Assembly (NCBI GenBank): GCA_029941885.1
Contig: JAPYTP010000005.1
Location: 1-64,000 of the forward strand
DNA length: 64,000 bases
Source: Myxococcota bacterium
Lineage (GTDB): Bacteria; Myxococcota_A; UBA9160; UBA4427
Direction: 5' to 3'
The notes under the pieces: generated by a model
What the model was told of the DNA's origin: nothing
Seen by the model: the letters and a program-made list of their open reading frames with translations, nothing else
Database searches by the model: none
Shown here: one piece after another, positions 155 to 4,658 of the stretch
How the letters are laid out: each line of letters opens with the position of its first letter
How positions within the stretch are numbered: position 1 is the stretch's first letter
Position numbers and translations under genes: made by a program

Positions 155-994
155 CTAGAGCGGTGCCAGCTCCCCGTAGCGGGGCTTTCGCTCACCGAAG
201 AAGAATCGATGGGCGTTCCCGTAGAGGAACTTATCGAGCACCCCGTCACGTAGATCGAGGGCTCGCGCTTCGGTGACACAGCGCTCGAGATCGAGCGCCG
301 GGTGATCGGAAGCGAAGAGGATCTTGTTCTTGCCCCGGGTATTCATGAAGTGGATCAGTTCCGCCGGGAAATGCTTTGGCGAATACGCGGAGGTCATCAG
401 ATGTAGATTCGCGTATTTGATCATCAAACGCGTCGCAACCCCCCACCAGGGGTCAGCACCGTGGGCCATGCACAATTTGAGTTCGGGAAATCGCAGGCAG
501 ACTCGATCGAGATGAATCGGATCCTGGCATTCGCCTGGCATCGGCGGCCCCGGCAGGCCCGTGTTGATCGTCAGCGGCAGATCGAGCTCGATGCATTTCG
601 CGTAGAGTGGGTAGTAGAGTGCGTCGCTCGGAGCGATATCGAAACCGAAGGGAACGACCTTCGCACACGCCGTTGGATGGCTGCGCACCAGGGCCTCGAG
701 TTCCCAGAGTCCTTTCATCAGATGACGTGGGTCCACACCGAGCCCGAGGGAAAAACGTTCCGGATGTTTCTCGACGCAGCGCAGAGCGCGGGCAGTGGGC
801 GCGTTGGCGTTGCAGACGATGATCGCCCGCTCGACGCCCAGCCGATCCATCTCGGGGATCAGATCCTCGGGCTCGAAACTCCGAAAGAAGCCATCCCCGC
901 CCTTGAGGTAATCCTCCTTCACTCGGATCAGATATTCGGGCGGATCGAAGTCTCCCATGTCGACGTTGATCCAGCAATCGATCGCCTTCTGCAT
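155..994 (-). CDS. Amidohydrolase family protein (Amidohydro_2 type)
   Basis: Protein MQKAIDCWINVDMGDFDPPEY... with LCMAHGADPWWG and LFASDHPALDLE; longest ORF begins at 1102 but MQKAI is the likely start. Confidence 0.8.
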   Translation of the reverse strand: MQKAIDCWINVDMGDFDPPEYLIRVKEDYLKGGDGFFRSFEPEDLIPEMDRLGVERAIIVCNANAPTARALRCVEKHPERFSLGLGVDPRHLMKGLWELEALVRSHPTACAKVVPFGFDIAPSDALYYPLYAKCIELDLPLTINTGLPGPPMPGECQDPIHLDRVCLRFPELKLCMAHGADPWWGVATRLMIKYANLHLMTSAYSPKHFPAELIHFMNTRGKNKILFASDHPALDLERCVTEARALDLRDGVLDKFLYGNAHRFFFGERKPRYGELAPL

Positions 995-1082
995 CTTTCC
1001 GCTTCTCCCCTGTTTGAGTCCTTCCGCAACGTTACGCGGAGCGATTTCACCGGTTGAAAGGCGGGTCCGGGGCGGCGGTCGA

Positions 1083-1862
1083 TCAGTAGGCGGACATGCC
1101 ACCTTCCGCCGGGATCGTTGCGCCGTGGATCATGCGGGACTCGTCCGATGCGAGGAAGAGAGCGATCTGCGCGATGTCCTCGGGAACCCCGATGGCGAAA
1201 GGATGAGCCTGCTCGAGCGAGCCATCCTCTGCGGCGCGACCGAGCTGTCCACCTTCCATGCGCTTGCGGATCCGCTCGGACAACACGACGCCCGGACAGA
1301 TCGCATTCACCCGGACACCCTGCCCACCATAGGAGGATGCGAGCGCACGGGTGAGCGAGAGGATCCCGCCCTTGGCAGCGGAATAGGCATGAAGGGGGTG
1401 GCCCTTGAGCGCCACGACGGAGGATGCGTTGACGACCGAGCCCCCTCCGGACTCGATGATGCGCGGAATCCCATGGCGACAGCAGAGGAAAGTGCCTTTG
1501 AGATCGAGGTCGAGGCTGTGTTCGAGGACCCCGAGGTCGATCTCGGTCGCGAGCCCATCTTCCGGGACCGATCCCCCGGCACAATTGAAGAGAACGTGGA
1601 GGTCACCGAAAGCGGATATCGTTTCGGCAAAGGCCCGCTCGACGGAACCTTCGTCGGTCACGTCGGTCTGGACAAAACTCGCACGACCGCCGTCCTCCAA
1701 AATTTCCTTGGCCGCGGCCGAGCCGAGTTCGGAGGAGATCTCGGCGATGACGACCGAGGCCCCTTCCTGCGCGAAGAGACGGGCCGAGGCTCGGCCAATG
1801 CCCGACCCCGCGCCAGTGACGAGGGCAACCTTGCCCGCAAGCCGGCCCGAGCCGGGCTTCAC
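1083..1862 (-). CDS. SDR family oxidoreductase
   Basis: GKVALVTGAGSGIGRA (TGxxxGIG), NCAG-type segment, YSAAKGG (YxxxK). Confidence 0.9.
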   Translation of the reverse strand: MKPGSGRLAGKVALVTGAGSGIGRASARLFAQEGASVVIAEISSELGSAAAKEILEDGGRASFVQTDVTDEGSVERAFAETISAFGDLHVLFNCAGGSVPEDGLATEIDLGVLEHSLDLDLKGTFLCCRHGIPRIIESGGGSVVNASSVVALKGHPLHAYSAAKGGILSLTRALASSYGGQGVRVNAICPGVVLSERIRKRMEGGQLGRAAEDGSLEQAHPFAIGVPEDIAQIALFLASDESRMIHGATIPAEGGMSAY

Positions 1863-3019
1863 GCGGCACCCTCCGAGGTAGGCGAGGGAACGTCCATCCC
1901 GTAGAGTTCGACGACGTTCTCACGCACCATGCGGCGTCGTACATCATCGGGAACGCCCGCAAAGTTCTTCTCGATCCACATCCGCGAATCCGGAAATGTC
2001 GAATCCGAGTGTGGGAAGTCCGAGGCCCACATGTAGTTCTCGCGGCCGAAGATCTCGTGCGTCGCGGGACCGACCGGATCATCCTGGAAGGTCGCGTAGA
2101 GTTGGCGACGGATGTAGAAGCTCGGCGGTTCCGGAGGGGATTCGGGCCACAGGGCGCGGTACTTCAAGTCGCAGTGGTCCATGCGGTACATGAAATGCGG
2201 AAGCCAACCCGCGTCGTTTTCCGCCGACACGATCTTCAGGTTCGGAAAGCGGTGGAGCGCGCCACCGAAAATGATGCGCGAAAGCGAATCCTGGATTTCG
2301 TGCAGGACGCTCATGTACCACACGCCGGAATGCATGCGGCCGTTGATCGCGTCCACGACCCCACTACTCGTCCGCCCCCGACCGGCGATGATGTGGAGCG
2401 AAACCGGAAGGTCTGCCTCGGCCGCCGCGGCCCAGAAAGGATCGTAGACCGGGTCGTCGTAGGGACGGTCCTCGGGCGGAGCGCCCCAGATCATCGCACC
2501 GCGCATCCCCTGCTTGGCAATCGTCTCGAGATCGCGCACCGCGAGCGAAATGTCTTCGAGCGAGATCAGACCCACTCCGTAGAGACGTGCCGGGGAATGT
2601 TGGCAGTACTCGGCGAGCCAGCCGTTGTAGGCGTGAAAACAGGCGCGCTGGAGCTCGCCATTATCCATCGCGAAGAGCTTCATCCCGAGCGTCGGGTAGA
2701 GAATCTCGGCATCGATCCCATCGAGTTCTTGATCGTCGATCCGCGCGACCGGATCCCATCCCGACGGTCGGGCGCTTTCGTACCCCTTGTCCTGGAACTC
2801 CGCGAGATCCTTTCCGGAGCGCCCGGCTGCGAATCCCCCGGCGATCGGAAAGGGGGTCGCACCTTCCGCCACGAAGAGCCAGGCAGGTCCGTCCCCGGGG
2901 TTCTTCGTTACATATGGAGCGCGATCTCGCAGGTCGCGATCGAGACGCTCTTGCCAGAGATTCGCGGGCTCGGTGACGTGTGAGTCCGCTGAAATAACGC
3001 CGTGGGGTGCCATGATCAT
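1859..3019 (-). CDS. Amidohydrolase family protein (Amidohydro_2 type)
   Basis: ISADSHVTEPANLW N-terminus, C-terminal MWASDFPHSDSTFPDS; overlaps the SDR start by 4 nt. Confidence 0.85.
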   Translation of the reverse strand: MIMAPHGVISADSHVTEPANLWQERLDRDLRDRAPYVTKNPGDGPAWLFVAEGATPFPIAGGFAAGRSGKDLAEFQDKGYESARPSGWDPVARIDDQELDGIDAEILYPTLGMKLFAMDNGELQRACFHAYNGWLAEYCQHSPARLYGVGLISLEDISLAVRDLETIAKQGMRGAMIWGAPPEDRPYDDPVYDPFWAAAAEADLPVSLHIIAGRGRTSSGVVDAINGRMHSGVWYMSVLHEIQDSLSRIIFGGALHRFPNLKIVSAENDAGWLPHFMYRMDHCDLKYRALWPESPPEPPSFYIRRQLYATFQDDPVGPATHEIFGRENYMWASDFPHSDSTFPDSRMWIEKNFAGVPDDVRRRMVRENVVELYGMDVPSPTSEGAA

Positions 3020-3264
3020 CCTCCCGGGCCGACCCGCACACGTCGTTGAATCGCGGACTGCTCTAGTGACCCAGCCGAAAGACTAGTGCGTGGGGCATCG
3101 GGGCGGTACCGGGCAATTTCCAGCGATGGCAACTGCGTTCCCGGGCGAATGCGTCTCGGAGCGATCGGCTCTACCCCGATTTCGGACGACGATCGAACCA
3201 GGGCCTCGCCGCCTCGAGCTGGCCCGCGAGACGGAAGAGCGTGGCCTCATCGTCCATCCGTTCT

Positions 3265-4658
3265 CTACGAATTCTTTCCGAGCACCCGGCCCGGTTCGAT
3301 CTGGATCGGAGTCGCCGATTCGTTCCAAAGCTGGACCTCGCCCCTGACGACGCGACCCCTGCACCGAAGCAGTGGTCACCGGAGACGCTGAACCGGCGGC
3401 ATCTGACGAGAGACGGCGGCCCGTCTGGAAAGCGCGCGTGGAGATCCTCGACGTGCCCGAAGAATCTCGGGTCGAGGTCGATCACGCAGTCGGCATAGCG
3501 CGCCGGATCGGAGGCGACGAGCCGAAAAACCTGCGTCAACTCGAAGGCATCGGACCCGACCGCCAATAGATCGTTGGTCGTCTTGACGGGTGAGAATCGA
3601 TCGCGCGGCACGGAGATCGCGCGGGCGCCAGGGAAGCACTCGATTGCGGAGCCCATCGCAGTCTCGAGCTGATAGCAGCAAGGGCTCGCTTCCTGGCCCT
3701 GCGACACGCGCTTCTCGTTGCGAATGACAGGGAGGGAAAGATCACCCGGGTATCGATCGAACGCCTCGGACAGCGCCAGGAGGTCGAGCCAGAGATTGTT
3801 CGTATTGAAATATCGATGCTTGGATACATCCTCGAAATCCTCTCGTTCGTCCATCGGACACTGCGCGACCTCACGCAGGATCAGTCGACCGTTTTGCACA
3901 GCGAGATGGCCTCCCTTGCGATCCGCGTTCGTTCGAGCCGCCACCTCCATCGCGAAGGGAATCCGATTCTCCGCCACCCATCCAAGGATTCGCGCATCCA
4001 GCACGGCGCCTAGATTGTCCGCATTCGAGGTGAATGCATAGCGGACTCCCCTGTGAAGCAACCGATCGAGCGTTCCCGAGCATTTCAGGGCGACATAGAG
4101 ATCTCCATGTCCTGGAGGGCACCACTCGAGTTCGGGATCCTGACTCCAGCGAACGGGCTCCCAGGACTCTGCATCGATTCGAGGAACCTTGTGCTGAAGA
4201 AAGTCGGGCGAAAGATCCAAAGCGAACTCTTCGTAGGCGGACAACGCCGCCAGCGAATCATCGCGTGTGCGATAGCTGTTCATCATCAGCAAGGGAATAT
4301 CGCTCGCTCATCGAGATCGCTGAGCGAGCACCGAGCGAGCGATCAGGTCGAGAAAGGACAGCCCCGGACGAACCTCGAGAAGGCTCTTCGCCTTGGAAAG
4401 TCCCATACTGGTCCCGAGGCCCCCGTTGAGCTTGATCACGACGGTCCGCGACATGGCGTTCCGACCGGCCGCCTCGTAGCCGCTCTGCTGTTCCAGCGAT
4501 TCCAGTCCCGCGACTGCATCGAACGAAGATTCGGGAATCTCCGTGGCACCCCCACCATTCACGAATCGAAGCGACCGCAAGAAGCAATCCGTCGCGAGCG
4601 ACAGCATTCCCGCCCTCCTCATCTCGTCGGCGAACAGGCCCAGGTTCTTCTCGTCCAT
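3265..4658 (-). pseudogene. UTP--glucose-1-phosphate uridylyltransferase (UDPGP family), disrupted
   Basis: N-part (4308..4658) has VIKLNGGLGTSMGLSKAKSLLEVR; in-frame TGA at 4308-4310; same frame continues ASDIPLLMMNSYRTRDDSLAAL... (ORF 4292..3171); near 3353 the family-like C-terminus RVVRGEVQLWNESATPIQIEPGRVLGKNS* continues in another frame, ending at 3265. Confidence 0.85.

Follow-up and report, generated by a model that had tools for sequence, protein, structure and literature searches.

The window analysed here comprises 64,000 nt, positions 1 to 64,000 of contig JAPYTP010000005.1 (C5) of the Myxococcota assembly GCA_029941885.1 (G000), and all positions below refer to it unless another contig is named. 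Near its beginning, on the minus strand, lies an interrupted gene of the UDP-glucose pyrophosphorylase (UGPase) family, in the following called copy A. The features of the locus are:

3171..3260, minus strand: relic of an amidase (PF01425) gene that is deleted except for its 3' tail; 26 residues with 88% identity, E about 1e-9; 80.5% DNA identity over 77 nt
3265..4658, minus strand: probable pseudogene of a UDP-glucose pyrophosphorylase (copy A), with ATG at 4658 and the old stop TAG at 3265-3267; PF01704; 76% DNA identity to the intact orthologue on contig C45 of the sister species G001
3345..3358, minus strand: shift of the reading frame, net +2 compared with the orthologue, placed by alignment with the orthologue and relatives; exact position not resolvable
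4299..4343, no strand: nested inverted repeats around the TGA, with 11-bp perfect arms at 4299-4309 and 4333-4343 and 12/13-bp arms at 4302-4314 and 4317-4329
4308..4310, minus strand: premature TGA, opposite TGG (Trp) in the G001 orthologue

Copy A is matched by the profile PF01704 at 4511-3354 (E 3.6e-121, 405 bits) over profile positions 35-410 of 413, with one TGA inside the match; this significant full-length match places it in the family by ancestry. When scored separately, its two pieces cover profile positions 34-94 (E 6.4e-16) and 106-410 (E 4e-96). The motif KLNGGLGTSMG is encoded in a 116-codon ORF (4658-4308) that is terminated by the TGA. Past this stop, translation in the unchanged frame gives ASDIPLLMMNSYRT and extends, with IPLLMMNSYRT on the way, as far as about 3345, and the last approximately 25 residues of the family-like C-terminus are provided by another frame, which ends at TAG 3265-3267. 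A tblastn search with the G001 orthologue recovered this C-terminus as a second piece at 3351-3280. Since the two pieces match neighbouring parts of PF01704 and the signature is present, an earlier note on this DNA, which had described a UDPGP gene with two lesions, was right as to place and kind. The uninterrupted reading frame that a working member of PF01704 needs is broken by the TGA and by the frame change near 3350, and copy A thereby carries at least two disabling changes relative to intact orthologues, as is characteristic of a pseudogene. Judged from this anatomy, the product made before the TGA should comprise 115 residues without most of the catalytic domain, and a product restarted after the TGA should be devoid of the KLNGGLGTSMG nucleotide-binding motif; neither is expected to be an active enzyme.

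The two lesions are about 950 nt apart. Most close relatives have Trp in the column of the TGA, among them G001, G005 (copy A), G006, G007, G008, G022 and G025. The earlier note had derived the stop by one transition from CGA (Arg), which does not agree with TGG in the orthologue and Trp in G005, G006, G007, G008, G022 and G025. At the second lesion the window is 2 bases longer than the G001 orthologue, and the residue count there is equal in all relatives. The 1-nt deletion that had been assumed would leave an extra residue that none of the relatives has, so that a net +2 change is the simpler account, and the frame change would most simply be due to one net +2 insertion; the repetitive GTC/CG context prevents its exact position from being fixed. 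Likewise, the frame past this lesion had been taken for low-complexity sequence, and its end was found instead to read in frame into the 26-residue amidase relic.

The relic is separated by 4 nt from the old stop of copy A and consists of the last 29 codons of the amidase gene, RMDDEATLFRLAGQLEAARPWFDRRP. The matching gene end belongs to the amidase located directly 3' of copy A in G005, where the full gene belongs to PF01425 (Pfam); in G002, G006 and G007, too, the A locus is recognised by this amidase. No orthologue of the G005 amidase is left in G000 or G001 (best matches 48-50%, versus 66-68% among G002, G005, G006 and G007), and the tail was not found in G001 either. The shifted ORF of copy A runs on to 3171 because its frame happens to match that of the amidase tail, which is a one-in-three coincidence. 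A scan for promoters and terminators was uninformative. A block of three genes (155-3019, minus strand), two of them amidohydrolase-like and one for a short-chain dehydrogenase, is located beside copy A in G000 and G001, at the place where G005 has the amidase. The amidohydrolase at 1859-3019 (minus strand) belongs to a family (PF04909) that is strongly expanded, with 102 matches here, 66 in G001 and 6-47 in the other members of the genus. A tRNA-Sec over the gathering score is present in G000 (G000:C104:13941-14035), G001 and G005, so that selenoproteins are probably made in this genus.

A second, uninterrupted PF01704 gene, copy B, was found by profile search on contig C19 of the same assembly. 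Its best relatives of solved structure are the UDP-glucose pyrophosphorylases 3gue/2oef (E 1e-103), and it has the usual residue at all but 2 of 137 near-invariant positions. G002, G003, G004, G005, G006, G007 and G008 share the neighbours of copy B; because these are conserved through the genus, copy B stands at a conserved locus and copy A is the additional copy. GalU was considered as a replacement for copy A and rejected, as none above the cut-off occurs in G000, G001, G002 or G005. Loss of the gene had been thought to imply either a paralogue elsewhere or a change of lifestyle. The search for a second UGPase in the genome, proposed in the earlier note, confirmed the paralogue in the form of the intact gene on C19, and with copy B intact neither a lifestyle change nor a lost UDP-glucose supply is needed. 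Copy A would be a redundant paralogue, with UDP-glucose presumably supplied by copy B; since the enzyme acts in trans, the cell should be able to use either copy. The organism need not have lost its UDP-glucose supply, and in biological terms the loss of copy A is ordinary gene decay, of a duplicate and not of a core function.

In the sister species G001 the situation is the reverse: copy A on C45 is intact and copy B on C67 is broken.

G001 contig C67, 25031-26200: copy B pseudogene (L067); fragments in several frames, with several indels and about 145 bp deleted; KLNGGLGT motif altered

Contig C5 is collinear with C45 over 39 kb and C19 with C67 over 31 kb, and DNA identity across both syntenic loci is about 72-85%, mostly 78-80%. 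The UGPase tree pairs the window copy with that of C45 and the copy of C19 with that of C67, both with support of 100/100, while its deeper branches are weakly supported. G005 has both copies uninterrupted, with A at a locus syntenic to that on C45. Since both loci are syntenic and the tree pairs the copies accordingly, A and B were present at these loci in the common ancestor and each species broke a different copy, A here and B in G001; both elements of a reciprocal loss, a pair ancestral at the same loci and a different copy broken in each descendant, are thus seen. Beside the amidase of the A locus no trace of copy A was found in G002, G006 and G007 (in G002 the A-locus neighbourhood is present without it), so that A may have been lost there or may have been gained later. 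An origin of copy A by duplication and one by transfer both fit, given the weakly supported deeper branches.

The dN/dS ratio between the A copies of the window and G001 is 0.17, alike on both sides of the TGA, with values of 0.09-0.22 for other pairs. The nonsynonymous branch ratio of window to G001 is 1.23 (0.84-1.80) for copy A and 1.22 for the intact control pair. There is no clear acceleration in copy A, and the two lesions are the only direct signs of its death. Provided that the G001 branch evolved under constant constraint, the unconstrained part of the window branch would be no more than about 16% (arithmetic from 1.80 and an omega of 0.17). The earlier note had considered the decay to be recent, and these values bear this out, with the restriction that they fit an artefact equally; taken alone, the branch-rate measure is consistent with a late loss of copy A and with lesions that are not real.

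The lesions are read from the assembly consensus, and the comparison is based on one metagenome-type assembly per species. If one lesion or both were errors of assembly or consensus and the cell had an intact gene, the lack of accelerated nonsynonymous change would be as expected; moreover, the TGA is located inside a strong inverted repeat, the sort of place where sequencing errs, and the assembly consists of 500 contigs. Over the 39 kb shared by C5 and C45, however, copy A is the sole internally interrupted gene of this assembly, and yet it has two lesions; the other 25 of the 26 gene pairs are uninterrupted, which makes a generally error-ridden contig unlikely. Other cases flagged as possibly broken, besides the two UGPases, were judged from match coordinates to be stops at the ends of ORFs with over-long starts or wrong-frame overlaps. 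Near the TGA a Gln codon that is otherwise near-invariant has changed as well, and the deletion of the adjoining amidase down to a relic points to real change at the locus. Two lesions in a redundant gene adjoining a deleted gene fit real decay, and we regard an artefact as unlikely.

Even a real UGA might be read through or recoded, as Trp by suppression or as selenocysteine, with copy A still making enzyme. It stands exactly at the Trp position of the relatives, with constraint on both sides and a tRNA-Sec in the genome. Nevertheless, 16 of the 29 ORFs listed for the contig end in TGA as their ordinary stop, and recoding would leave the second, C-terminal lesion in place. Selenocysteine was rejected despite the tRNA-Sec, as no relative has Cys in this column and no clear bacterial SECIS-like hairpin was detected in the stretch after the UGA (z -1.66); recoding of either kind appears extremely improbable. 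The redundancy itself would disappear if copy A or B came from another organism in the bin, and contamination is estimated at 6% here and 9% in G001. Against this, C5 and C19 have the same G+C content (0.633 and 0.636), and each has a collinear, equally diverged partner contig in the one sister assembly. Mis-binning of A and B would be required in both assemblies, and G005 also has both. Contamination was rejected on this two-way collinearity and has very little probability left.

Copy A is thus very probably a redundant second UDP-glucose pyrophosphorylase gene that has recently turned into a pseudogene, with reciprocal loss of the duplicates in the sister lineage. As synteny shows, copies A and B were both carried, at two separate loci, by the ancestor that this species shares with G001. 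In this lineage A would have been broken by the nonsense codon and the C-terminal frame change and B kept, and in the lineage of G001 B would have been broken and A kept; as either copy would supply UDP-glucose in trans, the choice of the survivor may have been close to arbitrary. A duplicated central-metabolism gene of an uncultured bacterial genus would in this way have been resolved oppositely in two sister species, and to take the single-copy UGPases of these genomes as orthologues would be misleading (hidden paralogy). A search of the literature for a UGPase pseudogene accompanied by a paralogue, or for reciprocal loss in bacteria, found nothing on point.

The inverted-repeat region at the TGA folds better than shuffled sequences (z -2.65), and perfect repeats of the 11-bp size occur 4 times in the window versus 1.0 expected. 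TGG GGG of the orthologue corresponds to TGA GCG in the window, both substitutions matching the upstream arm of the repeat, and the nearby Gln codon, invariant in all relatives, has become TCG in the other arm. Template-switch mutation at quasipalindromes is a known mechanism (PMC7202029, PMC8604942), and the substitutions around the TGA are such as it would be expected to produce; ordinary point mutation would also suffice. That the TGA was made by one template-switch event at the inverted repeat, in the same short period as the neighbouring amidase deletion, is a tentative and somewhat doubtful proposal. If true, it would add to the reciprocal loss a duplicate whose killing mutation and the mechanism thereof are still readable.

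With the eukaryote-type UDPGP (PF01704), such as the UGPases of Leishmania/Trypanosoma (2oef, 3gue), copy A shares KLNGGLGTSMG, the LMNS.RT block and a profile match of nearly full length, and it differs from them in that a TGA and, at the C-terminus, a frame change interrupt it. As in template switching at quasipalindromes (PMC7202029, PMC8604942), the changes near its TGA raise the complementarity of a short inverted repeat, but only two substitutions, read against the orthologue, fit, so that the likeness is a suggestion. Reciprocal (divergent) loss of duplicates is well known from eukaryotes that have undergone whole-genome duplication, such as Paramecium (PMC10195154), and as in that case two sister species keep different members of an ancestral pair. 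Unlike in Paramecium, the present case concerns one pair of bacterial genes at unlinked loci, no genome duplication is involved, and both broken copies are still readable.
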